Of a DNA stretch of 31,538 nucleotides, positions 5,379-28,237 are shown piece after piece. The number at the start of each line of letters is the position of its first letter. The stretch's first letter is position 1. The notes beneath the pieces were generated by a model. That model did no database searches. It was not told the DNA's origin and worked only from the letters and a program-made list of their open reading frames with translations. A program made the position numbers and the translations under genes. Where the stretch lies: the IMG/VR virus record IMGVR_UViG_3300015263_000182, positions 1 to 31,538 of that record. One strand, written 5' to 3'. This stretch comes from a virus.

Positions 5379-5382
5379 GACA

Positions 5383-8120: not shown

Positions 8121-8123
8121 GCA

Positions 8124-8948
8124 ATGACATTCGCTGCCGACGAAACTAGCGTTGAAAGTGGTTCAGTAATTGAACTCTACAAGTTCAGCTACGCTGGCGA
8201 GACATTCTACTACACGTCAGCTGACGACACGTTCACTTACTCGGACAGGGATTATATCCCAGTCGCCGGGCTCACTCGTTCTCCGATCACAGAGCAGAGT
8301 GAGATCAGCCAGTCATCGCTGACTTTGACTGCGCATCCTGATTTTGAGGTCGCTAAACTTTTCGAGGTCTACCCTCCATCAGACGTCGTTGATCTGGTCA
8401 TCTATCGAGTTCATCGTGGCTCACCGACGGATGTCATCGTCTACTGGCTCGGGCGCGTGCTGAACGTGTCGTGGCCGGGAGGCTACTGTGAGCTTCGCTG
8501 TGAGTCACTCTACACGCGACTGCGCCAGCCGGGTCTGCGCAGAGTGTATTCTAGGAACTGCCCTCATGCGCTCTATGGATCGGAGTGCGGAGCTAATCAG
8601 GTGTCGTTCGCAGAGAACGCGCAGCTTGACAGCGTGTCAGCGACACAGTTTGAGCTGGTGAGCAGTGATTTTCAAATCCATCCGGACGGATACTACAGCG
8701 GAGGGAAGGTTGTCTATGAATACTCGCCCGGCAAGTTCGAGCGGCGCGGCATACGCAAGCACGTTGGGAACACCATCACAATCACGCATCCAATCCCCGG
8801 TCTGCCCGGAGACGCAGACATAGTTGTCTATGCAGGATGCGATAGAACGCAGCCGACATGCAATGATCGCTTCGCTAATGGAGAGAACTTCGGCGGGTTC
8901 CCATACGTGCCGAAGAAGAATCCTTTCGGCTCTAACTCGGTGTATTGA
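8124..8948 (+). CDS. Tail tip protein, DUF2163 / BR0599 family (lambda gpL-like)
   Basis: This 274-aa protein matches the DUF2163/BR0599-type phage family. Hallmarks are an N-terminal domain with FYYTSADDTFTYSDRDY, a cysteine pair in NCPHALYGSECGA around residues 147-159, and a C-terminal AGCDRTQPTC-NDRF-NFGGFPYVPKKNPFG signature. The four cysteines resemble those of lambda gpL, whose C-terminal domain carries an iron-sulfur cluster, so metal binding is plausible. It lies directly before the gpJ-like hub gene, as expected for a protein that docks the hub to the distal tail ring. Start is ATG at 8124, 3 nt after the upstream stop. Confidence 0.85.
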   Translation: MTFAADETSVESGSVIELYKFSYAGETFYYTSADDTFTYSDRDYIPVAGLTRSPITEQSEISQSSLTLTAHPDFEVAKLFEVYPPSDVVDLVIYRVHRGSPTDVIVYWLGRVLNVSWPGGYCELRCESLYTRLRQPGLRRVYSRNCPHALYGSECGANQVSFAENAQLDSVSATQFELVSSDFQIHPDGYYSGGKVVYEYSPGKFERRGIRKHVGNTITITHPIPGLPGDADIVVYAGCDRTQPTCNDRFANGENFGGFPYVPKKNPFGSNSVY

Positions 8949-8950
8949 AA

Positions 8951-11900
8951 ATGATCTGGACGCAAATCATCTGGTATGTAGTTACGCTGATCATCAGCAT
9001 CGCGCTGACGCCGAAGCCTAAGAAGCCGAAGGCTGCCGCGCTAGAGGACTTTGAATTTCCAACCGCAGAGGAAGATCGTTCGATCCCTGTCGTGTTCGGC
9101 GAGATAGACATCTCCGGGCCGAACGTTGTTTGGTACGGTGACCTCAACATCAAGGCGATCAGGAAGAGCAGTGGATTTAGCAAGGCGACTGTCGGGTATA
9201 AATACTACATCGGTTTCCACATCGGCCTGTGTCATGGACCAGCAGACTCGATAACGAAGATCTGGTGGGAGGACAAGGAGTGCTGGACAGGCAATCTTAC
9301 CGCGAGTGGATCTGGCAGCATCGATCAGAAAGATCTGTACGGAGGCACTGGTCGCGGCGGCGGCGTCATTGGAGACTTCGATGTTGACATGGGTGAGTCT
9401 GGTCAGACAGCCAATGCCTACCTGACGTCGCGTCTTGTAGTTTCAAGCACTGACTATCCGGTTCCAGCTTATCGTGGCATCGTCAGCTTCATCTGGAAGG
9501 GCGGCTACATTGGAAACAGTGAGTACGTCAAGCCGATTAAGATCCGGGTTAAGCGCATTAAGAAGGGCTGGCAGAATGACATCTGCTGGTATCCTGCTAA
9601 GGCCGAACTCAGCACGGGAATGAACCCCGCGCACATCATCTACGAGACGCTGACTAACTCGTTTTGGGGGATGGGTCTTTCTTCAGACGTCATCAACCTG
9701 ACCAACTTCACGGCGCAGGCGGATCTGCTGTACGATGAAGGCTTCGGGTTGAACATGATCTGGAACCAGTCGGTGACCATCGAGGCATTCCTGCAAGAGG
9801 TACTCGATCACATCGACGGAGGCCTGACGTTCAATCTTACGACTGGCCAGTACGAGCTAACGGTGTTCCGCGCCAACTACGTGCTCGGTGACCTGCCGAT
9901 CATTGACTCTACTGACATCGTAGAGATGGTCAAGTTTGAGAAGCAGGGATGGGGCGAGACCGTCAATGAGATAATTCTCAACTACACCGATCCGACTACA
10001 CGTCGTGGGACCAACATCACGGCACAAGACCTGTCGCAGATAGACGCGCAGGGTTCACGGCTCAGTCAGCAGGTTGACCTCCCAGGCATCACTGACCACA
10101 CCATTGCGCATCAGGTTCTGGCGCGTGAGCTGGCGCAGCGCACGACGCCGCTGACACGCGTCACGTTCAAGGTCAATCGCAATGCGTGGCTTCTCGGCTT
10201 CGGCTCGCTGTTCAAGCTTGACAGACCCGAGCGCCAGTGCTACGAGCGTGTCTTCCGAGTGATCAAGATTGATCGCGGCTCGCTGCAAGACAACACGATT
10301 ACCATCGAGGCCATCGAGGACATCTACCAGAACGAGTTCGGCGCTGGCCTAGCAGTGCAGCCGTCCTCAGTATTGGAAGAGTCACCTCCGCCGACGCCAA
10401 CTGCCAGCGATGTTCTTTCAGCTACGACTACGACTCCGCCGGGCTCGCCTGCTGACGGTGACACTTACTTTATCCCGGCTGGCGCGACGGGAGCGTGGTC
10501 AACTCATCCATTCTCATTCGCAACGTGGGACGCAGACACTGGATCGTGGGAGTACACGCCAGCAGAGGACGGTGACGGGTTCTACGTCGTAGATACTGGG
10601 ACCAACTACCAGTTCATAGTCGATTCTAGCGGAGGTTCGCTGGGGCCGATAGCTGGCGTGACTGATCACGGCATGCTGACTGGTCTTGCTGACGATGACC
10701 ATCCGCAGTACCAACTCGTTTCTACCATCAGCGAAGTCATTGATGATCGCGTTGCTGCACTGTTGGTAGAAGGAACCAACATCACGATCACCTACGACGA
10801 TGGCGCGAACACGCTCACCATTGACGCTGCCGGGTTCAGCTCGCCGTTGACCACGAAGGGCGACCTGCTAGTCTACAGCACGGCCGAGGCAAGGCTCCCC
10901 GTCGGCGCTAATGGCTATGTGCTGACGGCCGACAGCGCAGAAACTGCCGGAGTCAAGTGGGCGGCGCCGACAGGCGGAGGCAGCGGACAGTCAAACTACT
11001 ATCAGGCAGGCGCAGATCCGGGAAGGCGATACACTTTCTACGATGACTTCGTAGAGAACCCGCCATCACTGGGATGGGCAACGAACACTTCTGCTGGATC
11101 ACTTGACTACACGACTGGAGTTGACGTCGGTCATCCCGGTGTCGCCATGCTCAGCTCAACCACCTCAACGACTGGCCAAGCTGGACTGATGCTTGCGAAC
11201 AGCGTCACTGGTGGCGCGGCGAACTACATGAAGTTCGGTGGTGGCGTCATCGTCATGCGCGGGCTCATTTATCTTCCGGCGCTCATGGACGGGACCACGA
11301 ACACTGGACAGGTTCGCTTTGGTCTTGTTGACGAATTGAGCGGCGCTCCCGCCAACGGTGTCCATGCTCAGTATGACGGCAACTTCGCGAACTGGCGACT
11401 GTACTCGCGCGGCGGGTCTGGCGGCACTGTCAATAGCAGCTCAGGCAGCATCGCAGTCACGGCAGCGCAGTGGACGTTGCTTGAGATCGTCATCTATGAC
11501 ACGAGCAACGCCGAGCTCTATGTTGATGGCGTGCTGGCCGCGACACTCAACACTCCGTTCACGACCACTGGATGTGCGCTTGGCTTCAGCGTTCAGAAGA
11601 CAGCAGGCACAACAGCGCAAGACTTGTACGTTGACTGGGTTCAGGCGTGGCAGGAGTTCAGCACGGAGCGGAACGTTGACGGGTTCTATCCACCGATCTG
11701 GTCTGGGGCTGGCGGCGCTGGCGGTGAGACCGGGAGCACAGGTGCTAGCTTCGGTGATGGCGTCAATACAGCGAGCATCGTTGACGCGATGATAGGCTAC
11801 GTCACCGTTCCATACGGTGGCACGATTGACCGGGCACAGATCGTCGCGGATGTGGCGTGCTCATTCAACGTTGAGGTGTGGAAGGCGGCTGGCGCGTTGC

Positions 11901-12154
11901 CGACTGTAGCAAACAAGATATCTGCATCAGCTCCCATCACGCTCTCCTCGCAGACTTACAACGCGGACACGACGCTGACCGGCTGGACAACGAGCGTGTC
12001 ACCGGGTGACGTCATAGCGTTCAAGCTCAATAAGACCTCTGGCTCACCGACGCAGATCATGGTGTCAATCGGCATCAAGACTGCGCAGCAGGAAATCTAC
12101 GTGCAGGCAGCTGAGCCTGTGTCGCCGGGTACTAACGCACTATGGATCTGGTGA
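8951..12154 (+). CDS. Central tail hub / tip attachment protein (lambda gpJ-like) fused to fibre modules
   Basis: This 1067-aa protein is the host-contacting tail hub. A hydrophobic N-terminal segment (residues 5-20) precedes the hub domain (about 35-470), with PVVFGEIDISGPNVVWYG and THIDGGL-like sequences of gpJ hubs. Around 494-555 is a DUF2793-like module (SPADGDTYFIPAGATGAW). Around 571 is the fibre-type motif DHGMLTGLADDDHPQYQ, then a LamG/concanavalin-like domain (about 693-900, FYDDFVENPPSLGWA to DLYVDWVQAW) and a final beta domain. Hub and receptor-binding fibre thus appear to be one polypeptide. TTG at 8945 is an alternative start; ATG at 8951 follows the upstream TGA closely and is preferred. 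Confidence 0.88.
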   Translation: MIWTQIIWYVVTLIISIALTPKPKKPKAAALEDFEFPTAEEDRSIPVVFGEIDISGPNVVWYGDLNIKAIRKSSGFSKATVGYKYYIGFHIGLCHGPADSITKIWWEDKECWTGNLTASGSGSIDQKDLYGGTGRGGGVIGDFDVDMGESGQTANAYLTSRLVVSSTDYPVPAYRGIVSFIWKGGYIGNSEYVKPIKIRVKRIKKGWQNDICWYPAKAELSTGMNPAHIIYETLTNSFWGMGLSSDVINLTNFTAQADLLYDEGFGLNMIWNQSVTIEAFLQEVLDHIDGGLTFNLTTGQYELTVFRANYVLGDLPIIDSTDIVEMVKFEKQGWGETVNEIILNYTDPTTRRGTNITAQDLSQIDAQGSRLSQQVDLPGITDHTIAHQVLARELAQRTTPLTRVTFKVNRNAWLLGFGSLFKLDRPERQCYERVFRVIKIDRGSLQDNTITIEAIEDIYQNEFGAGLAVQPSSVLEESPPPTPTASDVLSATTTTPPGSPADGDTYFIPAGATGAWSTHPFSFATWDADTGSWEYTPAEDGDGFYVVDTGTNYQFIVDSSGGSLGPIAGVTDHGMLTGLADDDHPQYQLVSTISEVIDDRVAALLVEGTNITITYDDGANTLTIDAAGFSSPLTTKGDLLVYSTAEARLPVGANGYVLTADSAETAGVKWAAPTGGGSGQSNYYQAGADPGRRYTFYDDFVENPPSLGWATNTSAGSLDYTTGVDVGHPGVAMLSSTTSTTGQAGLMLANSVTGGAANYMKFGGGVIVMRGLIYLPALMDGTTNTGQVRFGLVDELSGAPANGVHAQYDGNFANWRLYSRGGSGGTVNSSSGSIAVTAAQWTLLEIVIYDTSNAELYVDGVLAATLNTPFTTTGCALGFSVQKTAGTTAQDLYVDWVQAWQEFSTERNVDGFYPPIWSGAGGAGGETGSTGASFGDGVNTASIVDAMIGYVTVPYGGTIDRAQIVADVACSFNVEVWKAAGALPTVANKISASAPITLSSQTYNADTTLTGWTTSVSPGDVIAFKLNKTSGSPTQIMVSIGIKTAQQEIYVQAAEPVSPGTNALWIW

Positions 12155-12155
12155 C

Positions 12156-12389
12156 ATGACAGCGAAGCGCAGAATTGGATCGTACTTCACCAATCTCTCG
12201 CACGTCAAGAGATGGACTGGAGGCTCATGGGCTCCGGTTCGCTTCGGCAAGCGATGGACAGGGACGGCATGGGAGCAGTGGTGGCCGCTGGCGGGTGGCG
12301 ACATCAGCAGCGGCCCATACAATCTGGATGAAGCGACGCAGTCAATTGGCACCGTGTTCAATCTAACTCAAACGCCACAAGGACTATGA
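12156..12389 (+). CDS. Small tail-associated protein with a repeated KRWTG motif
   Basis: This 77-aa protein has two copies of a short Trp-rich motif, KRWTGGSWAPV and KRWTGTAWEQW, separated by FG. Such repeats are common in short virion proteins near tail fibres, but I cannot assign a role. It starts one base after the hub stop and is followed by the next gene after one base, so it is part of the tail-fibre operon. No membrane segment or cysteine is seen. Confidence 0.65.
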   Translation: MTAKRRIGSYFTNLSHVKRWTGGSWAPVRFGKRWTGTAWEQWWPLAGGDISSGPYNLDEATQSIGTVFNLTQTPQGL

Positions 12390-12390
12390 C

Positions 12391-13338
12391 ATGTCAACTG
12401 GATTTCGTTACGCAAGATATGACTTGGATTCAACTACGGCACAGATGGGCTACCTTGCCGGAGCAATCCACGAGGTGCTTGATGACCTGCTGACAGTCGG
12501 CAGCTATCCGTGGACCAAGACGGTCAACGGAACGAATGACGTCACTTATCAGGCTCCCGGTGGCAGTGAGATGATGCTGCACGTTGCGCAGAACTACTCG
12601 CTCAGCACGAATCTACTCATACAGTTATACGCTCAGGTTGGCACTGATCCTGAGTTCCCGACTCCGACGCAAGTAGTAACAGCCGGTCAAGGCTATGTCA
12701 CGCTGAGACCACGCGACAGCACCAGCTCCGCAACAACCTACGATAGCAACTGGTATGGCATCAGGACTGATCGCTTCATGTTGCTGGCCATTGGTCCAAA
12801 CAACGCAGGGAGTGTGATGGGGTCAATAGTAGCGGCGGGAGACTTTCCTGTACTGTCTGGATCCGATCCCGGTCTCACCTGCATCCTTGGTAGCACATCA
12901 ACCACTTCATCGAACACTTCCACTAGCACTGAGTACACTCTTACTGGAGCCTTGTACCCTCCGCAGAGCAGTCCGCCAAACGGAGTATATGGTTACTCAT
13001 ACAATCACTTTCAAGGATCAACCTTAAGTCATCCGGTATTCTGCTGGCAGACCTTACCAAACAACTCATATCTCTATTACTCCGATACGCTAGGAGAGTT
13101 GCAGCTTGGCAAGTTGTTGATTGGAACGTCAGCAAACACAACTGACGCTTCGAACATCAGCACGCGCACCATGTATCGCGGATACGTACCGTATCTGCGC
13201 TCTTGTCCAGTGCGTCAGGCAGACATGGCCAACGAGGACACCTTCACAGACGCTGGAGGAGCAACGTATATGTACTGGGACAGTTTGAATAATTATCCTG
13301 CGGTGCTCATGATCTCTGACGATGAGGCGCTGCCGTAA
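12391..13338 (+). CDS. Tail appendage / fibre protein, unknown family
   Basis: This 315-aa Ser/Thr/Tyr-rich protein opens with a helix (MGYLAGAIHEVLDDLLTVG, about residues 19-37) followed by beta-rich sequence (MLHVAQNYSLSTNLLIQLYA). The plan resembles the product of 14025-14930: an opening helix, then an MKIQV/IQLYAQVGT-type strand and loops rich in Ser and Thr. It probably forms part of the adhesion apparatus downstream of the hub. The ATG at 12391 is preceded by AAGGACTATGAC. The stop TAA overlaps the next ATG as TAATG. Confidence 0.65.
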   Translation: MSTGFRYARYDLDSTTAQMGYLAGAIHEVLDDLLTVGSYPWTKTVNGTNDVTYQAPGGSEMMLHVAQNYSLSTNLLIQLYAQVGTDPEFPTPTQVVTAGQGYVTLRPRDSTSSATTYDSNWYGIRTDRFMLLAIGPNNAGSVMGSIVAAGDFPVLSGSDPGLTCILGSTSTTSSNTSTSTEYTLTGALYPPQSSPPNGVYGYSYNHFQGSTLSHPVFCWQTLPNNSYLYYSDTLGELQLGKLLIGTSANTTDASNISTRTMYRGYVPYLRSCPVRQADMANEDTFTDAGGATYMYWDSLNNYPAVLMISDDEALP

Positions 13339-18046: not shown

Positions 18047-18389
18047 GCTGAAGATACCGAGCCAGATAACTCTATTGGCTAACACACTGCACGTAAGAAT
18101 AATCCCTGACAAAGAGTTTGACGAGCTTCACCAAGATCCCGAATACGAAGGAGCCCACGGAGTCTACGACGATCAGAGGATGAGTATCGACATTCGCGAG
18201 AGTAGCGACAAGAAGGGTCACACCTATCTACACGAGCTGACCCACGGTATTCTCACGGTGATGAACCATCCGCTTAACGACGACGAGACTTTCGTGGATC
18301 TCTTTTCGGGATTATTGCATCAAGCTCTAGTCACAGCCAAGTTTAAGAGAGCTCCAAGGAGGAAGGTAAGTGAAGCAGCGAGTGACTGA
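18033..18389 (+). CDS. Small zinc metallopeptidase-like protein (HExxH)
   Basis: This 118-aa protein carries YLHELTHGI, a consensus HExxH zinc-binding motif (about residues 67-75), followed by an acidic helix (DDETFVDLFSGLLHQAL) that could supply the third ligand, as in ImmA/IrrE (M78)-type and similar small metallopeptidases. Substrate unknown; it could process a phage or host protein late in infection. ATG at 18033 overlaps the outer-spanin end by 14 nt; TTG at 18000 is an alternative. No signal peptide is seen, so cytoplasmic action is likely. Confidence 0.7.
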   Translation: MKKGELKIPSQITLLANTLHVRIIPDKEFDELHQDPEYEGAHGVYDDQRMSIDIRESSDKKGHTYLHELTHGILTVMNHPLNDDETFVDLFSGLLHQALVTAKFKRAPRRKVSEAASD

Positions 18390-19452
18390 TGAGGAGATAC
18401 TAGCCGCACTAGACGCGTCAAATGGAATAAGAGCGCACGCGGCACATGCTCTTGGGATTTCAACGAGAAGGCTTGTAGCAAGAATCGGCAAGATGAGGGA
18501 CAACGGCATTGAGGTTCGAGAATCTACGTACACTGGCAGCTGTCCGACGAAGGCGGCAGACGAGAGATCAGAAACTCGGCTGTCATTCCCGGAGCTGCCG
18601 GACGAAGAGATCTCGATAGAAGAGCTACTGTACCGGCGCAAGTCGGAGTTTCGTCGCCGCAAAGAATGGAAGGACGCACGGCGCATCGTGCCTGTCAAGG
18701 TGAGTGACAACAGGCCGATAGGAATCGTCATGTTCGGAGATCCGCACGTTGACGATCCGGGTTCGGACATCGAGGCATTGGAGCGTGACGTCAATCTTAT
18801 CCGTGAGACTCCGGGATTGTACGGAGCCTGCATAGGTGACATCCAGAATAATTGGGTGGGGAGATTGTCGCACTTGTATGGTCGTCAGGAGACGACAGCG
18901 CGTCAGGCGTGGCAGTTGGTCGAGTGGTTCATCGACTCTTTGAAGGAGCACTGGCTCTTTCTGGTGCAGGGCAATCACGATCACTGGAGCGGCACTGGCA
19001 ATCCGTTGAACTGGATCCAGCGACAGTCTCAAGGCATACACGGAGACCACGAGGTACGCATCAGCATCGAGTTTCCAAACGATACGAAGGTGCGCATTGC
19101 TGCACGGCATGACTGGCCGGGCTCCTCTATCTGGAACCCGACGCATGGTCAGGTACGCGCCGCGACCATGACCGTCCACGATCACATCGTGGTTGCTGGC
19201 CATCGTCATACCGGCGGATACCAGAAGCTGCGCATTCCGGCCAGTCAGTTGATCTCACACTGTATTGCGCTCGGAGCGTACAAGCTCTTCGATGACTACG
19301 CTGAGGCGAAGGCATTTCCGAACAGGCACATCTCTCCGTCTGTCACTGCAATCATCAATCCGTCTGGCAATGAAGATAGTGTCGTAAGAATTGAACACGA
19401 CACTGAAGCTGCCGCGAGCTACTTGACGTGGCTTCGTCAAAGAGGAGGTTGA
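18370..19452 (+). CDS. Metallophosphoesterase with N-terminal helix-turn-helix
   Basis: This 360-aa protein starts with a Fis-type helix-turn-helix (about residues 6-50, HAAHALGISTRRLVARIGKM), then a linker rich in acidic and basic residues, and a calcineurin-like phosphoesterase domain. Metal-ligand motifs occur in order: GDPHVDD (about 123), GDIQNN (156), GNHDHW (201) and GHRHTGG (277). The family includes nucleases and phosphatases such as Mre11/SbcD-type and lambda Ser/Thr phosphatases. The DNA-binding domain favours a DNA substrate, by inference. GTG start at 18370 follows AGGAGGAAGG. It is the last gene of the rightward block. Confidence 0.85.
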   Translation: MKQRVTDEEILAALDASNGIRAHAAHALGISTRRLVARIGKMRDNGIEVRESTYTGSCPTKAADERSETRLSFPELPDEEISIEELLYRRKSEFRRRKEWKDARRIVPVKVSDNRPIGIVMFGDPHVDDPGSDIEALERDVNLIRETPGLYGACIGDIQNNWVGRLSHLYGRQETTARQAWQLVEWFIDSLKEHWLFLVQGNHDHWSGTGNPLNWIQRQSQGIHGDHEVRISIEFPNDTKVRIAARHDWPGSSIWNPTHGQVRAATMTVHDHIVVAGHRHTGGYQKLRIPASQLISHCIALGAYKLFDDYAEAKAFPNRHISPSVTAIINPSGNEDSVVRIEHDTEAAASYLTWLRQRGG

Positions 19453-19731
19453 GGCGGCTGAGGGGCAGGCAGGGGGCCGGGGGCAGGCAGGGGGGCACTT
19501 TTTTAACATAATTGGCCCCCCTGCTAGGCCTCCGCAGGGCCGCTAGGCTGGCCGCTAATTCACCCCGCTACCACCCTACCGGCCCCCCGGCCCCCGGCAG
19601 GCTGGCGCGGCCCTGCTAGGGGGCGCAATAGGGGGCAGGGGGCAGGGCCGGGGGGCATGCCGGGGGCCGGGGGCATGCTGCGCTGCAACATAGCGGCCCC
19701 CCGGCAGGGGGCAGGGGGCAGGGCCGCACCC
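19453..19731. repeat. Noncoding G/C-rich island with multiple G-quadruplex-type tracts between convergent operons
   Basis: No credible gene lies here. The sequence is built from runs of 4-6 G or C separated by CA, CC or CAGGCA. On the plus strand, G runs occur at 19462-19465, 19472-19476, 19479-19483 and 19490-19495, and again at 19619-19623, 19631-19635, 19638-19642, 19645-19647, 19650-19655, 19662-19666 and 19669-19673, then 19707-19723. C runs at 19563-19566, 19574-19576, 19583-19588 and 19591-19595 give the same potential on the minus strand. CCGGGGGGC (19648-19656) can pair with GCCCCCCGG (19696-19704). The composition differs sharply from flanking genes. Possible roles are transcription or replication arrest, an origin, or a recombination site. 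Confidence 0.75.
19487..19524. terminator. Candidate hairpin at the convergent junction
   Basis: GCAGGGGGGC (19487-19496) is the exact reverse complement of GCCCCCCTGC (19515-19524), forming a 10-bp stem with an 18-nt loop that contains six T (19499-19504). It lies 34 nt after the stop of the last rightward gene. The T run is in the loop, not after the stem, so this is not a standard rho-independent terminator, though the stem itself or a folded G-tract in front of the T run might stop polymerase. Confidence 0.35.
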
Positions 19732-19863
19732 TCAGCCCTCTTCGTCATCCCACCACCGAAATTTCTCCTCCTTCCACGGGAGGACGATGATGATGAGAAA
19801 GAGCATTGAGTACATCACCGCGATAAGAGCACTGTTCAGCACAGTGTTGAATATCTTGCGCAT
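19732..19863 (-). CDS. Small single-span membrane protein (43 aa)
   Basis: This 43-aa reading frame begins MRKIFNTVLNS, has one hydrophobic segment (about residues 12-28, LIAVMYSMLFLIIIVL), and ends with a charged aromatic tail (WKEEKFRWWDDEEG). GGAG lies 6 nt before the ATG at 19863, and the ATG overlaps the stop of the J-domain gene as TGATG, the coupling used throughout this operon. The ordered topology and coupling make it a believable gene although small. It is the last gene of the leftward operon and its stop abuts the G/C-rich island. Function unknown. Confidence 0.65.
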   Translation of the reverse strand: MRKIFNTVLNSALIAVMYSMLFLIIIVLPWKEEKFRWWDDEEG

Positions 19864-20459
19864 CAAAAGCTCCCCGTTGAGGTTACAGTTGAGGTGGTAA
19901 AGAACTGCGGAGGGTTGTCGTAGTCGTAGGAACAGTCCTTGAGCATCTCGATGGCACGGTTGGCCACCTCAAGGTTCTGAGTAGCCTCCCCGATGCTGCG
20001 CTTGATCTCCGCTTCCTTGGCATCAAAGAGATTCTTGAACAGCCCGTCGTCATGCAGCCGAGTACGGTGCTGTTCTAGTCTCTTGATGGCAGCGTTGGCC
20101 TGCGTGATGTGCGTCTTCATCTTGCCGCACTCTTTCTTGATGTGCTGCCGCATCTGCTCGATGATCTGAGCGCGTCCCGGCGTCACGTTGTTGAGCACGT
20201 CAGACATGATGGCGTAGATCAAGTTCTTGGCCTTCGCCTCGACCGAGGACATCCCGTTGGATTCGTCGCCGGTCTGGTCGTAGCGGCTGCGCCTCATCGG
20301 GTCGGACAGGACTGCATACGCCACGTTGACCTTCGACATCTTGGCCGTGTCGCCACCGCGATCAGGATGGTGCTTCCTAGACTTGCGACGGTATGCCTTC
20401 TTGATGTCCTCTGGCGTGGCGTCACGCGCCACACCGAGCTCGTCGTAGAGGTCAGTCAT
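19863..20459 (-). CDS. J-domain (DnaJ-like) co-chaperone protein
   Basis: This 198-aa protein has a complete N-terminal J domain (residues 2-62): DLYDELGVARDATPEDIKKA, the catalytic HPD tripeptide in KHHPDRGGD, and NVAYAVLSDPMRRSRYDQTG. The HPD loop stimulates host DnaK ATPase. No Gly/Phe region or zinc-finger domain follows; instead there is a long charged helical tail (about 80-180, likely coiled coil) that may choose the client. It is a class C-type J protein, and would recruit host Hsp70 to a phage complex. AAGGA precedes the ATG at 20459. Confidence 0.9.
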   Translation of the reverse strand: MTDLYDELGVARDATPEDIKKAYRRKSRKHHPDRGGDTAKMSKVNVAYAVLSDPMRRSRYDQTGDESNGMSSVEAKAKNLIYAIMSDVLNNVTPGRAQIIEQMRQHIKKECGKMKTHITQANAAIKRLEQHRTRLHDDGLFKNLFDAKEAEIKRSIGEATQNLEVANRAIEMLKDCSYDYDNPPQFFTTSTVTSTGSF

Positions 20460-20685: not shown

Positions 20686-21424
20686 GCTGACTCCTGATGC
20701 TGTTCCTGTGGTCAGCCTGTTCGTCAACGACCATGAACTCTACCTCGTGCTCCATGCGCATCTGTCCAGCGGTCTTCTGCACGTTGGCGCGTTCCTCGTC
20801 GTTCAAGTCCGCTCGTGCGCAGCGATAGCACTTGTCATGGAGGCTGATGCTGGCAATGTGCAGGAACGGATCCGTGGCATGCGCCACGAGCAGCCCGCAC
20901 TCGGCACACTCCATGCCGGGGATTTCCTTCTTGGGCTCGGTGGTCGGAATGACCTTGTCCGGCTGCCCCATCGTCTTGACAACCTCGTGCGAGAAGTCCT
21001 CGGCAGTGACGTGATTCTGTTTACGCGAGTACTCATCGAACGTCCGCATGTTCTCCTGCTCACGCTCGTCGGCGTCGCGGCGCAGCTCCTCGAAGAACCC
21101 TGCCGCGAACGGATCGGCGGCATACGTGCGATACTCGTTCTCGACGAGCGTGAGGTAGCGGCGCAGATCCGCGATGTCGTCCAGCACGTCTTCGACGTTG
21201 GCGTCCATCGCCTTGAACACGTCATAGCCTTCGTTCTTGACGATGTTCTCGATGCGGTCCCACTTGCGAGCCAGCATCATGAAGGCGCCGATGCCTCCGC
21301 GCTTCTTCCAGCTGTCGCCGTAGGAGCGGCCCTTGATGATGAGCACGTCCATGTCCGCGTTCAACAGCTCCGCCAGCCTGCGACGGAATGCCAGTTCCTG
21401 ATCAGTGTGCTTAAAGCGTTCCAT
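20678..21424 (-). CDS. Possible nucleotide-modification-associated protein (Nmad1/DUF1599-like) with C-terminal zinc ribbon
   Basis: This 248-aa protein contains KGRSYGDSWKKRGG then MMLARKWDRIENIV (about residues 30-65) and a later acidic helix EDVLDDIADLRRYLTL (about 83-98). The YGxxW, K-x-x-RI-x-x-IE and D-x-x-DLxxY pattern resembles the Nmad1/DUF1599 helical family, associated with DNA-base modification operons; I recall this from memory and cannot verify it. The C-terminal part has MECAECG and DKCYRCA, a two-pair cysteine set likely binding zinc. ATG at 21424 follows GGAGGA. It follows the HD nucleotidase in the same operon. Confidence 0.6.
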   Translation of the reverse strand: MERFKHTDQELAFRRRLAELLNADMDVLIIKGRSYGDSWKKRGGIGAFMMLARKWDRIENIVKNEGYDVFKAMDANVEDVLDDIADLRRYLTLVENEYRTYAADPFAAGFFEELRRDADEREQENMRTFDEYSRKQNHVTAEDFSHEVVKTMGQPDKVIPTTEPKKEIPGMECAECGLLVAHATDPFLHIASISLHDKCYRCARADLNDEERANVQKTAGQMRMEHEVEFMVVDEQADHRNSIRSQHD

Positions 21425-21947
21425 GAGTGTTTCCTCCTGCTGATTCAAATAGCGCCATTGCGTACTCAGTTAGTTCCTGTGTCCGTTCGTTGAGTGAGAT
21501 GAGCTCACGGTTGCGCACGGCACCGATGGCTCGCCGCACCATGTCCTCAACTCCTCGGTTGCCCATCATGTACTCCTCGATCCCGTAGAACACGAGCTCC
21601 ATGATGTCGGCAAATTTCACGTACCGATGCTCCTCCTCGGAGAGGAAGGTCTTGGTCTGGTAGTCGAGATGGATGTCCTCCTCTACTTCTCGAAGAGCCT
21701 CTTCAAGCTTCGGGTTGTCCCACTTCGCCGGTGCCGGTACGTCGCCGGTGACGGCCTCTGGTAGATCGTGATAGAGCATCGCCCTCCAGACGTTCTTGTC
21801 AGCGTCCGGGTACACTGCGTCAAGGATCACAAGAGCGTTGAAAGTGTGCTCTCCGACACCCTGTTGATGGATGACGCTCTTGGTATGGCAGCGTTTCGTT
21901 CTGGCAGCTACCCTCGCCAGCTCAAGCAGATCGTGCGATGTCTTCAC
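21411..21947 (-). CDS. HD-domain 5'-nucleotidase (YfbR-like)
   Basis: This 178-aa protein is an HD-superfamily metallohydrolase of the size and motif order of YfbR-type 5'-deoxynucleotidases, which dephosphorylate deoxynucleoside monophosphates. Metal ligands are visible: VGEH (H34), YHDLPE (H60, D61, with E64) and KFADIMEL (D114). Directly after the thymidylate-synthase homologue, it could remove host dNMPs that would compete with a modified precursor; that role is inference. The GTG start at 21947 overlaps the upstream stop as GTGA and follows AGGAGA. Confidence 0.85.
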   Translation of the reverse strand: MKTSHDLLELARVAARTKRCHTKSVIHQQGVGEHTFNALVILDAVYPDADKNVWRAMLYHDLPEAVTGDVPAPAKWDNPKLEEALREVEEDIHLDYQTKTFLSEEEHRYVKFADIMELVFYGIEEYMMGNRGVEDMVRRAIGAVRNRELISLNERTQELTEYAMALFESAGGNTHGTL

Positions 21948-22969
21948 TTCACTCTCCTGATCATCCAGCGGATGCCAGCCTCGTGCCAGTCGATGTTCTC
22001 GAGGTCCCTGCGCCTGTCGAAGAACTCAACTGCCTTAGCCGCGCCCTCATTCTTGTAGATTTTCCACGCTTCCCACATGGGAATGACTACGGCATTGAAG
22101 AAGCGCAGAGTTAAGACACGGTCTTCAATCTTAGCGCCAGCCGCCACAGAGTTGCAGAAGCTTTCGCAGCACTCCAAGAACTTCAGCCAGTCGTCTGCGT
22201 CATCGAGGAGCGGCACGGTATGAATGCCATTGAGGTAGAGGTCCACCACACCCTCACGACTGCCTTCACGCAGGAGGCGCTCGTACACTGCGATGTCTGG
22301 GTAGACGTGGAAGCTGTCGCTGATCTGCCGATAGACGCCGACGTACATGCCGAGCGCCGAGGCCACGAACTCCTGCAAGACGCTGAACTGAACAGCGTTC
22401 GCTCCGTACGCGCCCCAGATGGCATCGTTGCTGCGGCAGCACACCGTCATGTCCAGTCCGCCACTCCTAGCCTTGAAGAATATCGCGTCATTGCACGGGA
22501 TGTCCTTCGAGTCGAAGTTGAGGTCGTCCTTGGGATCCCAGATCATCATCACTGCGCGGCGCGTGTCTGGTTCCTTCTTCATGAGGAACACGACTTCCAT
22601 GATCTGATCTCCGTACCAGACTTGACTGCCGAAGTGTCGGCGCAGCCTGTGTCCGTACGGAGCATGGAACGTAATGCCGTCGTCGGAGTACTGCGCAATC
22701 TGTCTGTTGAACATCCTGAGGAACCCGACGTCCTTTCTACCCGCCAAGATCCACAGAGACTCGAACAGGTGAAAGAACGGGTTGGCGTCACGCGCCGGAC
22801 AGAATGACACACGCTGCGTCGGGCATGAGTACTCCGTTACGACGGGCTCCGGCCACTCGCGTGTGAGGGTGCCTCTTGCCGTCCTGTTTATCCAATGAGT
22901 CTCATGGCGCATCATGAACACGAGTTCTGAGATTGCGCCATTGACATTCCTAACACTGATGGTTTTCAT
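21944..22969 (-). CDS. Thymidylate synthase homologue, probable dUMP (pyrimidine) hydroxymethylase
   Basis: This 341-aa protein keeps the thymidylate-synthase catalytic layout: FHLFESLWILAG (E70), catalytic Cys in DIPCNDAIFF (C159), CRSNDAIWG (R179, S180, D182), Asn191 in GAYGANAVQFS, and SFHVYPD (H221, Y223). Phage homologues of this class often make 5-hydroxymethyl-dUMP or 5-hydroxymethyl-dCMP instead of dTMP. Retention of Asn at the base-recognition position, where T4 dCMP hydroxymethylase has Asp, favours a uracil substrate. Clustering with base-modification genes supports hydroxymethylase over plain dTMP synthesis, but motifs alone cannot separate them. AGGAAGGGG precedes the ATG. Confidence 0.85.
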   Translation of the reverse strand: MKTISVRNVNGAISELVFMMRHETHWINRTARGTLTREWPEPVVTEYSCPTQRVSFCPARDANPFFHLFESLWILAGRKDVGFLRMFNRQIAQYSDDGITFHAPYGHRLRRHFGSQVWYGDQIMEVVFLMKKEPDTRRAVMMIWDPKDDLNFDSKDIPCNDAIFFKARSGGLDMTVCCRSNDAIWGAYGANAVQFSVLQEFVASALGMYVGVYRQISDSFHVYPDIAVYERLLREGSREGVVDLYLNGIHTVPLLDDADDWLKFLECCESFCNSVAAGAKIEDRVLTLRFFNAVVIPMWEAWKIYKNEGAAKAVEFFDRRRDLENIDWHEAGIRWMIRRVK

Positions 22970-22979
22970 TTTCCCCTTC

Positions 22980-23609
22980 CTAGTATCCGTAGCGGTCTGC
23001 CATCTTCCTGATCTTAGCGGTCAGGCGAGGGTCCTGTTTCTCGAGGTCTTGCCACGTGACGTGCCGCGCCTTGAAGATCCCTCTGCTCCTGTTGGCCGGA
23101 GGAATCTGCGGCAGCTTCACGTTGCCAAGCTTCGTCATGTCACAAAGTCTGCGCCACTCCGACTTCCCCTTCACCAAGTCTTCTAGCCTGAACCTGTTCT
23201 TGGTGTAGCGCTCACAGGCTCTGTTGACCTCGTACCAGATGTGCATCGACTTGAGCACCTTCGGCTTGAGGCCAGCTGGGATGATGTCGAACTCTTCTAG
23301 CCACTCCTGATGCTCGACGCCGATGGTGCTCCAGATCGAGCCTATGGTCTTCAACGGATCTCGAACCAGATGAGCTCGGTGCTGAAACTGATAATCCGAC
23401 AGTCGCTCACCGACGTGCGCGATGAGGCCCTTCGGGTGCGTGGACGGACTGAATGGATACCACGGAGTGTCGAGGAAGAAGTAACAAGACACAGTGCCGT
23501 CCTCACGAACGTACTCGTGTCCGACGTCCTTGCCCGCTGCCCTGAACACTCTCGAGAGCCATGTCGTTCCGCTGCGGCTGTTGCCGACGACGTTGATCCA
23601 GTGTTTCAC
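22980..23609 (-). CDS. Sulfotransferase-family protein (PAPS-type P-loop)
   Basis: This protein of about 209 aa looks like a bacterial sulfotransferase, which moves sulfate from PAPS to a hydroxyl or amine. The 5'-phosphosulfate loop is GNSRSGTTWL (about residues 9-18); the 3'-phosphate-binding motif is HLVRDPLKTIGS (R83, D84, S91); a RFRLEDLV segment matches the usual [RY]-x-EDL, and the C-terminal end LTAKIRKMADRYGY matches the typical terminal helix. Two GTG starts are possible (23612 and 23609); 23609 has better spacing to GAGG. A sulfotransferase inside a base-modification gene run is unusual. The acceptor is unknown. Confidence 0.82.
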   Translation of the reverse strand: MKHWINVVGNSRSGTTWLSRVFRAAGKDVGHEYVREDGTVSCYFFLDTPWYPFSPSTHPKGLIAHVGERLSDYQFQHRAHLVRDPLKTIGSIWSTIGVEHQEWLEEFDIIPAGLKPKVLKSMHIWYEVNRACERYTKNRFRLEDLVKGKSEWRRLCDMTKLGNVKLPQIPPANRSRGIFKARHVTWQDLEKQDPRLTAKIRKMADRYGY

Positions 23610-24355
23610 CACGTCACCTCGTCTTGCAGTGTAAAGTCAACCTTTACAGTCGGATCATCGCACAAGGTTTCAGGCGTCCCCCACTCGTGCAGGAACATCT
23701 GCTCAACGTCAACGCTGACCTTGCGCCCCTCCTTGACGTGCTCGAAGAGTTGACTGAGGTACAGCACCTCACCCGGCCAAGTCTCCTCGAGATAGGTCTT
23801 CATGATCACCTTCGAGTCGCGGAAGTAGAATGCTCCGGCCAGCGCATGCGCAGAGATTGGGTCCTTCTCGGCACCTCTGGTGAACACGGGATGCGCGTCA
23901 ACGTATCCGTACCGCTCCTTGTTGACGGAGGGGCGGAACGTCAGCGCACCGAGGACAGCGCCACGCGCTCGGCACCGGAACAGGAAGTCATCCAGCACCG
24001 GAGAGTCGAAGGCATTGTCGCAGTTGAGCACCACGATGTCACCGTAGAGCCCGCTGTCGTACTGATTGAGGTGACTGATGATACGCACGACGGTCTCTGC
24101 CTGCCCTGAGGTCGGAGGCAGTCCTACCAGCGAGGCAGGTCTATCCATCCGTGCCGCGAACGCAGCGACATCAGAAGTCTTCACTCCCACCACGACCCTG
24201 CCCTCCCAGTCCTCCGGGATGACGTGGTCAATCATGGTGGCATAGCGGCCCTTCCACACGAACTTCACGAGAGCCTTCGGCAAGTCGGTCTTCTGCTTGA
24301 AGCGCATGCTGTCGCCAGCCGCAGGAATGATCAGAGTGCAAGGCACACTTTCCAC
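23606..24355 (-). CDS. Sugar-type nucleotidyltransferase (GT-A fold pyrophosphorylase)
   Basis: This 249-aa protein has the N-terminal signature of NTP_transferase enzymes, IIPAAGDSMRF followed by DLPKAL (R18, P26, K27), which join a sugar- or alcohol-phosphate to an NTP. A TSGQAETVV segment (about 82-90) corresponds to the usual nucleotide-binding Gln loop and VVLNCDNAF (D113) to the metal-binding Asp. Length is that of compact GlmU-N/RmlA/LicC-like enzymes; no left-handed beta-helix follows. With the kinase and HAD genes immediately upstream in the operon, it probably makes an NDP-activated donor. GTG at 24355 follows GGAG. Confidence 0.82.
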   Translation of the reverse strand: MESVPCTLIIPAAGDSMRFKQKTDLPKALVKFVWKGRYATMIDHVIPEDWEGRVVVGVKTSDVAAFAARMDRPASLVGLPPTSGQAETVVRIISHLNQYDSGLYGDIVVLNCDNAFDSPVLDDFLFRCRARGAVLGALTFRPSVNKERYGYVDAHPVFTRGAEKDPISAHALAGAFYFRDSKVIMKTYLEETWPGEVLYLSQLFEHVKEGRKVSVDVEQMFLHEWGTPETLCDDPTVKVDFTLQDEVTW

Positions 24356-24771
24356 TTCGTATTCTCCTTGAGATAGTTGGCCACTGACACTGAGTCCTCA
24401 AAGACGATCCCCGGCCCGAGGGCATTGAGCACGCGAGCCTTCCCTTGAGTTGTGAGCTCGCAGAAGGTGGATGTCGGTGAGATGTTAATGGCGTCAATGA
24501 CTGCGGTGGCCGCAACCTGTGACGCGCCAGTGATGATGATGCCGCCTGTCAGCTTGAACAGCTTCACCAGTTGAGTCGGACGCACCATGTGTCCGACGAG
24601 TCCCAGGTACTCTTCGTTCTTGCGCTTGTGGAGCTTGGGGTCATTCAACCACTCGCGCCACGTCTTCGAGAAGAAGTCCTCTGGAGGTTCAACGCCTACT
24701 CTTCGATAGGCTTCCAATACTGCCGCCCGAGTATCTGCGAGCGTTCCATCAAGGTCATAAGCGTACTGCAT
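24331..24771 (-). CDS. HAD-superfamily phosphatase
   Basis: This 146-aa protein begins MQYAYDLDGTLADT, HAD motif I with nucleophile D6 and acid D8. Motif II is IIITGAS (T81), motif III Lys is probably K111 in TTQGKARVL, and motif IV is VFEDS (E125, D126). It is small, with at most a minimal cap, like sugar-phosphate or polynucleotide-type HAD phosphatases. ATG at 24771 is chosen because AAGGAACGGAGC precedes it; the frame is open for 18 more codons. It overlaps the kinase gene by 76 nt and the nucleotidyltransferase by 25 nt. Substrate unknown. Confidence 0.8.
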   Translation of the reverse strand: MQYAYDLDGTLADTRAAVLEAYRRVGVEPPEDFFSKTWREWLNDPKLHKRKNEEYLGLVGHMVRPTQLVKLFKLTGGIIITGASQVAATAVIDAINISPTSTFCELTTQGKARVLNALGPGIVFEDSVSVANYLKENTKWKVCLAL

Positions 24772-25559
24772 GCTCCGTTCCTTCCGAGGTTGTAGAAAAT
24801 CTCCTTTGCGACATGGCTCGCCCACTCAAGGGCGATCTCGCTGCGTCCGCTGGCATACGGAATGATCCTCAGTGCGTGGATCATCAGCCAGAAGACAGCC
24901 TTGTGCAACAGCTCTTCACTGAACTTGTCGCGCAGCACGTTAAGACAGGCATCGCCGGGCATCGCCCATCCGAACATCACGTGCTCCCATCCGACCACCG
25001 ACTGTAGCATCTTGCCGATGTCCACCTCCGGCAGCCACGCCACCTTGCCGACGGGACGGATGGGGTCTATGAAGCGCAGCTTCTCGCCCTCAAGCGTGAC
25101 CATCACGTTCGAGAACGTGGGATCACCGTGGACGTAACACCCGAGCGAGGTCTGCCCGTGGTATAGGTCAGTCATCATCCATGAAGCGTTGAACGGCTGC
25201 CCCTTGAACCACTCTTCCATCGCTTCCATCCAGTCGTGCTGATCAATGCCGTTGCACCAGACGTCACGCTGAAGCGTGTAGATCATCTGATTGAGCAGCT
25301 CGTGTGGCTTGTACCACTTGAGGAAGTCGCAGGAGAGCGTCTCCATGAAGTAGCCATCTGGCATCAGGTTGATGACGCGAGGGCAGACCTCAGGTCCCAG
25401 CTGCCTCACGTACTCGGCCTGCTCCCTTGCGTTCTTTCCGGTCTTCCACGTTCCTTCGTCGGACACTATGACCGTTGCTCCGCTGAAGCCTGCCGTATTC
25501 GTACGCTTTCTTCCAGCGTACAATAACTTCTTTTCTGGAAACAGACTGCTTGTACTCAC
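24696..25559 (-). CDS. Small-molecule kinase, aminoglycoside/choline-kinase fold
   Basis: This 287-aa protein has the protein-kinase-like fold of APH/choline kinases. GFSGATVIV (about 24-32) is the nucleotide-binding hairpin, KTGKNAREQAEYVRQLG carries candidate Lys and Glu of the N lobe, CYVHGDPTFSN (H144, D146, N151) is the Brenner catalytic loop and RFIDPIRP (D165) supplies the metal Asp. It should phosphorylate the hydroxyl of a sugar, amino alcohol or similar small molecule. The next genes are a HAD phosphatase and a nucleotidyltransferase. The GTG start lies 170 nt inside the preceding glycosyltransferase gene, in another frame; N-lobe motifs require an early start, so the long overlap seems real. 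Confidence 0.78.
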   Translation of the reverse strand: MSTSSLFPEKKLLYAGRKRTNTAGFSGATVIVSDEGTWKTGKNAREQAEYVRQLGPEVCPRVINLMPDGYFMETLSCDFLKWYKPHELLNQMIYTLQRDVWCNGIDQHDWMEAMEEWFKGQPFNASWMMTDLYHGQTSLGCYVHGDPTFSNVMVTLEGEKLRFIDPIRPVGKVAWLPEVDIGKMLQSVVGWEHVMFGWAMPGDACLNVLRDKFSEELLHKAVFWLMIHALRIIPYASGRSEIALEWASHVAKEIFYNLGRNGACSTLMTLMERSQILGRQYWKPIEE

Positions 25560-26283
25560 GTTCCACCACCTTCACAAAGTCAGGGAACATCTGCGCCAGC
25601 TTCTCCGCGTCGGCGTTGCTGGCCGTCATGTTCCGTTCTAGGCTTGCGCCTCCCTTTGAATTGTACGTCTGATCCACCACGAGTTCAACCAGTACACGAT
25701 TCGGGTAGCCCTGAGTGAGCAGCTGAAGGCACAGCTCCATGTCCTCACGGTGCTCAATGCGCCCGAGGACGCAGTGCTCAACGACTTCCGGCACGCGATA
25801 GCCTAGTGCGTAGATCATGCGAGAGTTGGCATACCATCTGTGAGCAGACAGGATGCCATTGTTGCCCTGACGCGGCCCGATGCCGACATGCACGTACTTG
25901 TCCAGTGCTCTGTCAACCTTGCGCAGCGCCCAGTCAATCTCCTCCTCGGATGCCGTCGTGATGTTGAACGGCGGAAGAGGCTTCCCCTTCTTCAGAGGCT
26001 TTGAGTAACGACGCCTCGAGAAGCGCAGGTCATCGTCGAACATCATTATCTTGTCCACTCCCGTGGTGTTGTAATGCTCGAGAATCCACTTGCGCTTCTT
26101 GGCGATGGACGTGACTGAGGGTGGATGCACTATGAGTGACACTCCCGCAGGCACGGTCTTCTTGAGATAGGCCGCGTCAACTTCGTCAACGATCAAGTCC
26201 GTTCGCTTGTGCCATCGTTTCGGAATGTTGCGCAGCGTTATCTGTCGCTCAACGCGACGGTATGTCGGTATCACGATCCTCAC
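25390..26283 (-). CDS. GT-A glycosyltransferase resembling the TET/JBP-associated (TAGT) DNA glycosyltransferase family
   Basis: This 297-aa protein starts MRIVIPTYRR and has the metal-binding DDD in MFDDDLRFSRR (D83-D85), a YVHVGIGPRQGNN block (about 132-144), a conserved EHREDMELCLQLL helix and GYPNRVLVE, followed by TYNSKGGAS. The DDDLRF, HVGxxxRxGNN, EDxxxxLQLL-xxGYPN and xGGxS sequence order is, to my memory, that of phage TAGT enzymes, which glycosylate hydroxymethylated pyrimidines in DNA. The tail after about residue 255 is basic and low in order and corresponds to the overlap with the kinase. GTG at 26283 follows GGAGG. Confidence 0.75.
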   Translation of the reverse strand: MRIVIPTYRRVERQITLRNIPKRWHKRTDLIVDEVDAAYLKKTVPAGVSLIVHPPSVTSIAKKRKWILEHYNTTGVDKIMMFDDDLRFSRRRYSKPLKKGKPLPPFNITTASEEEIDWALRKVDRALDKYVHVGIGPRQGNNGILSAHRWYANSRMIYALGYRVPEVVEHCVLGRIEHREDMELCLQLLTQGYPNRVLVELVVDQTYNSKGGASLERNMTASNADAEKLAQMFPDFVKVVEREYKQSVSRKEVIVRWKKAYEYGRLQRSNGHSVRRRNVEDRKERKGAGRVREAAGT

Positions 26284-27269
26284 ATGATCCTCCTCAGTCG
26301 CTTGACTATGGCTGCCGAGCCATGCGCCTCGAGAACGTCGAGTGCATTCTTGCGCAGCTTGTTGAGCTCACCGACGGTGACGTTGCGAAGGATGTTCGCA
26401 AGATCATCATCACTGTGAACGGCAAGGCAGTTGACGAACTCTTGCATGTCGCCTTTCTTGTCCGCCCAGTTCGTGTGAATGACGTTCACCGTGCCAGCGT
26501 CCATCGCCTCAAGGAAACTGTACTGCGTTCCTCCGCCGTCGCCGTGCGGATAGTCCGAGAGGTCCACCGCCATCTGGTATCCTGCGGCCAGCCTAGCGGC
26601 GTCCTGTGAGCAGCGGAATCCCTTCGGCTTCTTGTACGACGGATACTTCTGCTTCAGCTTGAGGCCCAGGAAGTGAGTGGTCTCTTTGCCCACGAACTCC
26701 ACCCTGAACTTCGCCGGCAGCGACTCATTCGCCTTGCAGATGATGTCAGGGTGCTTGTTTGTCGCTACCATCGACAGTGAGCAGGCTCGCTGGCGTCCCT
26801 TCAGGTCGGACAGCTTGCCATGAACTCTCGAGTACGGATGCGGCAAGTATGCGCTGCCCTTGAAGTGCTTCTGCAACGACTCACGGATCACCACGACCTG
26901 AGCAGGCTTGAGTCCTGTCACGTGCGGGAACTGTTTGAACTCTTGCGTACTCTGGACACAGCACATCGCGCCAGCCTTGAGGAGCTTGTGGATGGTGTCC
27001 TTGTCCGCAAGATCATCTGGCCGTGCTACAGCCGTGATGAGCGTCGGAGTGGTCTTGGCCGCTCTTACCGCAGTGGCCACGCTCACGTTGCGATAGGACA
27101 GCTCGTGTCCCTTCATCACTCTCGTTACTCGCTCCTCACGATCTCTGTTGCAGCGCAGGACGGTAACGTTCACGCCCTCCGCCACGAGGCATCGTTGCAG
27201 ATGCGCCGTGAAGGACGTGAAGCCGCCAACCGACCACGGGCTGAGGTAGATGAGGTTGATGCTCTTCAC
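26280..27269 (-). CDS. GT-B glycosyltransferase (GT4-like)
   Basis: This 329-aa protein has a two-Rossmann GT-B plan. The N-domain opens INLIYLSPWSVGGFTSFTAH, the Gly-rich acceptor-side loop, and the C-domain has SLSMVATNKHPDI, then DLSDYPHGDGGGTQYSFLEA (about 245-264), a form of the donor-binding E-x7-E region, and MDAGTVNVIHTN. It probably adds a second sugar, or the only sugar, from an NDP donor. It overlaps the next gene (TAGT-like) by 4 nt and follows the aGPT-Pplase-like gene by 2 nt. GTG start at 27269 follows GGGAGGTAACA. Confidence 0.78.
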   Translation of the reverse strand: MKSINLIYLSPWSVGGFTSFTAHLQRCLVAEGVNVTVLRCNRDREERVTRVMKGHELSYRNVSVATAVRAAKTTPTLITAVARPDDLADKDTIHKLLKAGAMCCVQSTQEFKQFPHVTGLKPAQVVVIRESLQKHFKGSAYLPHPYSRVHGKLSDLKGRQRACSLSMVATNKHPDIICKANESLPAKFRVEFVGKETTHFLGLKLKQKYPSYKKPKGFRCSQDAARLAAGYQMAVDLSDYPHGDGGGTQYSFLEAMDAGTVNVIHTNWADKKGDMQEFVNCLAVHSDDDLANILRNVTVGELNKLRKNALDVLEAHGSAAIVKRLRRIM

Positions 27270-27271
27270 TG

Positions 27272-28237
27272 TTACCTCCCTTTCGCCAGCTTGCTCAACA
27301 TGGCGCTCTTTGAGACCGCCGTCTTCTTGAGCTTGTAGCGATCGTTCTCGAAAGACACGCGCTCGGTGGTCTTGTACCGACTGCGCGGCCTGCCCTCGCC
27401 GTTCTTGACGCGCATGTACTTGTCGAACTCACACAGTGAGTGCTCGACCTCACGCATCTCGAATGGCCACTCGCATGACTTGACCTTCTTGCTGAGCTTG
27501 CTCGGAGCACGCTCGAGAAGCTTCCTCATGGCGTCCACGTAATCTGGTTTCCTGCCTTCCATGCGATGCTTGCCGGTGAGCAGCCTGTTGATGCCTCGCT
27601 TCGCCCCCGGCCCCGGATTCGCCCATGTGTTGATGTCACGGGCTCCGTGTAGGACGTAGGTGAAGCGGAGGTCACACGCCATCTCATAGGCGATGAAATT
27701 GCCCACCGAGTTGATGTCAGTGAGAATCTCCACCGTGATCTGCATCGACTGCGCGTTCATGATCCGCTTGGCCAGCTCGTCGCGGTGCTTGTAGACGTAG
27801 TCCACCGCGTCGGTGATGATCTCCACCTTCGGGATTGACTGCCCGAGGTTCGGCACAATGTACGCGCCGGTGAAGATCTGCTTCTTGTTGCGCTTGCGCT
27901 CTTCGAGGATCTTCAGCGTCCTCGCTCTGCTCCACTTGCCCGAGAAATAAATCTCGTCGTAAGTCGGAGGCCAGTTGAACAGACGGAACAGCGCGTTGTG
28001 AAACACCACGTCACCCGGCGACGGGCGCTTGAGTGAGCCGTACAAGAAGACGTAACGGTTGATCCACGCTTGCGTCACGCGGTCAAGCTGCCGGAACGGG
28101 TTGGTGAACTTGTAGTCGTTGAGGATCTGGTCTTTGGTCCACGGCCTCTTGTGACCGTCGCGCTTCTTGAGATAGATGGAATGCCGTTCGTTGATCCAGT
28201 ACCAGAACAGCTTCTCCTCCGCAGGAAGGAATTTCAT
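27272..28237 (-). CDS. DNA base hypermodification protein (aGPT-Pplase / 5-hmU-DNA-kinase helical-domain class)
   Basis: This 321-aa protein matches the helical, DNA-glycosylase-related class linked to alpha-glutamyl/putrescinyl-thymine pyrophosphorylases and to the helical part of 5-hmU DNA kinases. Tell-tale segments in order: FWYWINERHSIYLKK (10-24), RPWTKDQILNDYKFTNPFRQ (31-50), KQIFTGAYIVPNLGQ, an HhH-like INSVGNFIAYEMACDLRFTY (about 175-194) and TWANPGPGAKRGINRLL. In known pathways such proteins act on phosphorylated 5-hmU in DNA, replacing phosphate by an amine or amino acid. No P-loop kinase domain is attached. GGAG lies 9 nt before ATG 28237. The family is recognised by memory of its motifs. 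Confidence 0.8.
   Translation of the reverse strand: MKFLPAEEKLFWYWINERHSIYLKKRDGHKRPWTKDQILNDYKFTNPFRQLDRVTQAWINRYVFLYGSLKRPSPGDVVFHNALFRLFNWPPTYDEIYFSGKWSRARTLKILEERKRNKKQIFTGAYIVPNLGQSIPKVEIITDAVDYVYKHRDELAKRIMNAQSMQITVEILTDINSVGNFIAYEMACDLRFTYVLHGARDINTWANPGPGAKRGINRLLTGKHRMEGRKPDYVDAMRKLLERAPSKLSKKVKSCEWPFEMREVEHSLCEFDKYMRVKNGEGRPRSRYKTTERVSFENDRYKLKKTAVSKSAMLSKLAKGR

Follow-up and report, generated by a model that had tools for sequence, protein, structure and literature searches.

A G- and C-run island between convergent operons of an uncultivated phage as a candidate transcription termination region

The sequence analyzed here is a 31.5-kb IMG/VR virus contig (record IMGVR_UViG_3300015263_000182) from an uncultivated phage; we call this whole stretch the window. 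At positions 19453–19731, the exact junction of a rightward set of late genes and a leftward set of early genes, lies an island of G and C runs. We propose that the island is a transcription termination and insulation region between the late (tail, lysis) and early (DNA modification, replication) operons, and we put the probability of this reading at about 0.55. The proposal is based on the exact position of the island between convergent stop codons, on a T6 tract behind its first predicted quadruplex motif, and on the hairpin terminators that relatives carry at the same junction. Predicted fold-back structures that exceed those of shuffled sequences on both strands, and analogies with a family of bacterial repeats and with a mitochondrial terminator, point the same way.

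Composition and architecture of the island

The GC content of the island is 0.763, and the maximum in any other 279-nt stretch of the window is 0.645 (z = 6.7). G or C runs of at least 4 number 17 in the island (12 G, 5 C) out of 76 in the window, and 23 runs are of at least 3. For runs of at least 5, the island has 15 versus 10 across the remaining 31.2 kb; when its own sequence is shuffled with dinucleotides preserved, the mean is 7.6 and the maximum 13 (n = 2000). Four-tract quadruplex motifs with tracts of at least G4 occur in the island only, and none appeared in 300 whole-window shuffles. All |G4Hunter| peaks of at least 1.75 in the window also fall inside it. Because run counts, GC content and quadruplex motifs exceed the shuffles or the rest of the window, the enrichment is beyond chance. 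The original prediction had described some 17 G or C runs in 279 nt, with G4-G5-G5-G6 at 19462–19495, seven G runs at 19619–19673 and four C runs at 19563–19595, as well as an unusual base composition and a position between the last rightward and last leftward genes. The runs are all present as described (the 17 being those of at least 4), the composition is indeed exceptional, and the position is exact, with stops at 19452 and 19732. The features of the island are as follows.

19453–19731, no strand assigned: the G/C-run island (run counts, GC), 279 nt, filling the gap between the two convergent stop codons
19462–19495, + strand: quadruplex motif 1 (G4-G5-G5-G6), G-rich in the rightward transcript, a predicted RNA fold
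19499–19504, + strand: T6 tract, the sole run of at least six T on the + strand of the window
19476–19535, no strand assigned: inverted repeat I2, arms 19476–19496 and 19515–19535, with the T6 tract in its loop
19563–19595, − strand: predicted quadruplex motif in the leftward transcript (G5-G6-G3-G4)
19584–19673, no strand assigned: inverted repeat I1, arms 19584–19602 and 19655–19673, 95% complementary, the core of a predicted large fold-back
19619–19673, + strand: predicted quadruplex motif 2, seven G runs with heptamer spacing
19694–19721, − strand: first hairpin of the leftward transcript, GCGGCCC...GGGCCGC, then a weak U-tract, UAUGUU
19703–19723, + strand: three heptamer units GGCAGGG, period 7, 100% match (repeat detection)
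19439–19516, − strand: the 78-nt stretch with the highest C/G ratio on the − strand (3.08), rut-like in composition, overlapping the end of the rightward gene

The island is a mosaic of the heptamer GGGGGC(A/C). Of its 14 copies, 10 are on the + strand and 4 on the − strand, and the rest of the window has none; Tandem Repeats Finder places period-7 arrays of 2.3–3 units at five places. The sequence may have grown through amplification of this heptamer. Many of the C-runs are opposed to G-runs as inverted repeats, and for the RNAs of both strands the predicted folds are more stable than those of dinucleotide shuffles (z = −3.1 and −4.0). The tetramer GCTA is weakly enriched within 19520–19620, with five copies in the island plus one on the opposite strand, three as GCTAGG. 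These copies are possibly a protein site, or merely part of the repeats.

Termination in the two directions

In the rightward direction, the first G block begins 10 nt past the stop codon, and the T6 tract lies 3 nt past quadruplex motif 1 and 46 nt past the stop codon. Shuffles of the window contain about two runs of at least six T, at random places. The U-rich tract of an intrinsic terminator is thus present (T6), and a GC-rich hairpin ending directly before it is absent, the hairpin fold upstream of T6 being weak (about −15 kcal/mol). With a quadruplex, the predicted energy of the upstream RNA falls to about −31 to −32 kcal/mol; the two estimates, both from models whose quadruplex parameters are rough, are −32.1 versus −15.4 and −30.7 versus −15.6 kcal/mol. 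The C-rich arm able to pair with the G-runs of motif 1 is at 19515–19535, that is, downstream of T6. Because this arm is still untranscribed when polymerase reaches T6, a hairpin would form too late, and a quadruplex could form in time. We infer from the models that a quadruplex, rather than a hairpin, would be the upstream RNA structure able to act at T6.

A plausible mechanism, given these predicted folds, has the quadruplex as an active element in termination. The nascent rightward RNA would fold into a G-quadruplex just before U6, either by itself or together with the non-template strand of the DNA. Standing in for the usual hairpin, the quadruplex would pause RNA polymerase, which would be released at U6; a polymerase getting past U6 would produce a long fold-back RNA. 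The specific proposal that an RNA or RNA–DNA hybrid quadruplex replaces the hairpin before the U-tract, with the other strand of this DNA acting as the stop signal for the operon that faces it, is a tentative one, to which we give rather low odds.

Leftward transcripts would run into the strong hairpin at 19694–19721 with its weak U-tract, and then into a C-rich stretch that might load Rho. The candidate is the 78-nt segment at 19439–19516, a possible Rho site by its composition. This segment sits opposite quadruplex motif 1, and its composition follows from the G-tracts.

The junction in relatives and in known systems

Relatives were sought with three neighboring proteins and one tail protein. 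All are distant apart from L098, and their thymidylate-synthase-like protein is ~40–55% identical to that of this phage. L098, a separate contig from this phage, spans window positions 2081–12999 with 6 mismatches over 10,919 nt and stops short of the island. In about nine relatives, the hydroxymethylase operon is convergent to the next gene (L061, L063, L065, L066, L068, L082, L107, which is Rhodoferax phage P26218, L108, and probably L093). Gene calls in the relatives came from a simple codon-usage model. The junction of L066 was mis-called and was read by eye, and in L082 the hairpin first inspected is upstream of the junction later picked by the model.

These relatives carry a compact hairpin at the convergent junction, often bordered by tracts of A and T. 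Such intrinsic bidirectional terminators, that of P26218 for example, occupy the same place between convergent early and late genes as the island does. The design differs. The relatives have one or two compact hairpins in gaps of mostly ~50–130 nt, with 0 to 4 G/C runs of at least 4, in contrast to the 279 nt and 17 runs of the island. Because relatives carry hairpin terminators at this junction, it looks, from the sequences compared, like a terminator site across the wider group, with the function conserved and the G-rich design not. As far as the collections searched show, the G-rich island is particular to this phage. The original prediction had proposed, among other options, a bidirectional transcription roadblock, and took lack of the island in close relatives with the same gene order as counting against its reading. 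The roadblock is the best-supported of its options, given the relatives' terminators and the U6 behind motif 1. A terminator is indeed found at that place; conservation of the island itself does not hold up, as it is absent from distant relatives with the same layout.

Among 28 loci of relatives of the last rightward protein, the island is found in none; most continue co-directionally and hence are no test of the junction. Matches to the DnaJ protein came mainly through the DnaJ domain and are not useful for synteny. Yuavirus YuA shares proteins with this phage, but beyond 10 kb all of its annotated genes have the same orientation, so that this part of its genome has no comparable convergent junction. 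An exact 21-mer and a 27-mer of the island are absent from IMG/VR, and in 84,980 genomes the 21-mer has three scattered matches (two Streptomyces, one Cyanobium) that do not suggest a common element. Against phage records, BLAST of the island or junction, limited by the low-complexity filter, gave no match.

The nearest known kind of element is the heptameric quadruplex-forming intergenic repeat of Xanthomonas and Nostoc, GGGAATC or GGGGA(C/T)T, described by Rehm et al. 2015 (PMC4692102). At these quadruplex-capable repeats, transcript starts or ends are more frequent than at controls, and the authors were unable to assign a function to them. The island shares their architecture, a period of 7 with G-tracts of at least 3, and its quadruplexes are predicted. 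The unit is not shared: GGGGGC(A/C) does not match the consensus GGGNATC or GGGGA(C/T)T. Further, the island is one compound, degenerate cluster in a phage, whereas the Xanthomonas and Nostoc repeats occupy many loci per genome, and the T6 after the first block is a feature of the island in which it differs from them. For the proposed working of the island, the likeness is to human mitochondrial CSB 2, where it is established that a G-tract terminates transcription through a hybrid quadruplex (PMC5027508). Both have G-tracts in the non-template strand. The likeness is one of working only, as CSB 2 belongs to another polymerase, to an organelle and to another role (the replication primer), with no homology. 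A literature search found no phage terminator of this type, most subscription journals being outside its coverage.

Alternative explanations and surroundings of the island

Several observations weigh against the termination reading. The G-run island is found in none of the roughly nine convergent relatives, and selection on a G-rich design is thus unsupported. In the leftward direction there is no long U-tract, and the island has no run of at least five A on the + strand. A simple terminator scan gave no match on the + strand of the island, and the proximity of T6 to motif 1 was spotted post hoc. Finally, a scan of IMG/VR for G-tracts with T6 returned 67 stretches, and only ~10 of 68 matches (redundant ones included) follow a gene on their own strand by at most 150 nt, several of these ~10 being ordinary hairpins with G-rich arms.

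The main alternative, possible though on balance unlikely, is that the island is a low-complexity repeat that has expanded and serves no function itself. The G5C(A/C) heptamer would have been amplified by slippage, with quadruplex potential as a by-product. The confinement of all 14 heptamers to the island, with period-7 arrays at five places in it, fits this explanation. The expansion may have been seeded by the arms of a former hairpin terminator, in one of the rare spots where inserted DNA disrupts no gene; the G-run and C-run arms of the relatives' terminators could be such a seed. Similar intergenic G5CM arrays also occur in unrelated phage contigs (L145, L115). Among the matches listed, 34 GGGGGCN arrays in other phage contigs are intergenic versus ~16.5 expected, and convergent junctions are not preferred. 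A neutral repeat does not, however, account for the T6 directly behind the first quadruplex motif or for inverted-repeat organization above dinucleotide shuffles, and the relatives lead one to expect a terminator here. That terminator could be an ordinary bidirectional one made of hairpins alone, the G-runs serving only as stem arms. Relatives use hairpins, and the C-runs and G-runs of the island pair in very stable folds. Yet the pairing partner is untranscribed at the only T6, and no stable hairpin has a long U-tract after it, so that we consider hairpins alone an unlikely explanation.

Far less probable are two further explanations. The original prediction had also offered a replication origin or terminus, or a packaging or recombination site, and no positive support was found for any of these. 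The cumulative GC skew does reach its maximum near the island, but the turn is fully confounded with the switch of coding strand, and the annotated neighboring genes are neither replication nor packaging genes. Such a site would also be expected to persist in relatives, which show only terminators at the junction. That the island is an assembly artefact, or a chimeric join at a low-complexity stretch, is comparably remote. The contig is metagenomic and no second contig crosses the island, L098 ending at 12999. On the other hand, gene content on both flanks and the convergent layout match those of relatives, each side is consistent in GC and in strand-wise skew, and the island sits between stop codons, with no gene broken.

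If a quadruplex does the stopping, the island would be a natural bacterial-type terminator without a hairpin, of a kind that terminator-finding programs would miss, as the simple scan did here. It would also provide a concrete sequence for the question of what role G-rich heptamer repeats play near bacterial stop codons. If it is merely an expanded repeat, it would show a phage terminator site that tolerates and accumulates G-rich repeats.

The left two thirds of the window hold the rightward late genes, which encode the major tail protein, tail assembly chaperone, tape measure, tail assembly proteins and endolysin. The right third holds leftward genes for nucleotide modification and replication, including a thymidylate-synthase/pyrimidine-hydroxymethylase relative, an HD phosphatase, a phrog_842 relative and a helicase. 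The genes nearest the island are as follows.

18370–19452, + strand: last rightward gene, phosphoesterase/DNA-repair-exonuclease-like (phrog_7339), its stop codon at 19452 bordering the island
19863–19732, − strand: probable last leftward gene, 43 codons, hydrophobic, stop at 19732
19863–20459, − strand: DnaJ-domain protein gene (PF00226, E 2.5e-19)

The 43-codon reading frame begins in an ATGA that also contains the stop of the DnaJ-domain gene, and its coding call by the codon-usage model is weak (score 12). Genes at 21411–28237 resemble those of thymidine hypermodification, namely a hydroxymethylase (phrog_5131), an HD phosphatase, a phrog_842 glucosyltransferase-like protein and a phrog_2396 protein. 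Going by this gene set, thymine in the phage DNA may be modified. No tRNA or tmRNA was found in the window, and no Rfam family matched above its gathering score anywhere in it.

A general class of phage G-tract and T6 terminators is unsupported, the scan matches being mostly not just past a same-strand stop; the match in L233 is likewise in a convergent gap. Pure tandem arrays occur between genes in two unrelated mid-GC phages, GGGGGCC ×8 at L145:10791–10951, starting 6 nt past a stop codon, and GGGGGCA ×8 at L115:1058–1196. An identical unit, GGGGGGTGGGGGTAGGTGGGGTCTATTTTTT, is present in at least 10 low-GC viral contigs (L236, L237, L246, L256 and others), and it lies 78–79 nt from the end of an opposite-strand gene wherever that gene is called.
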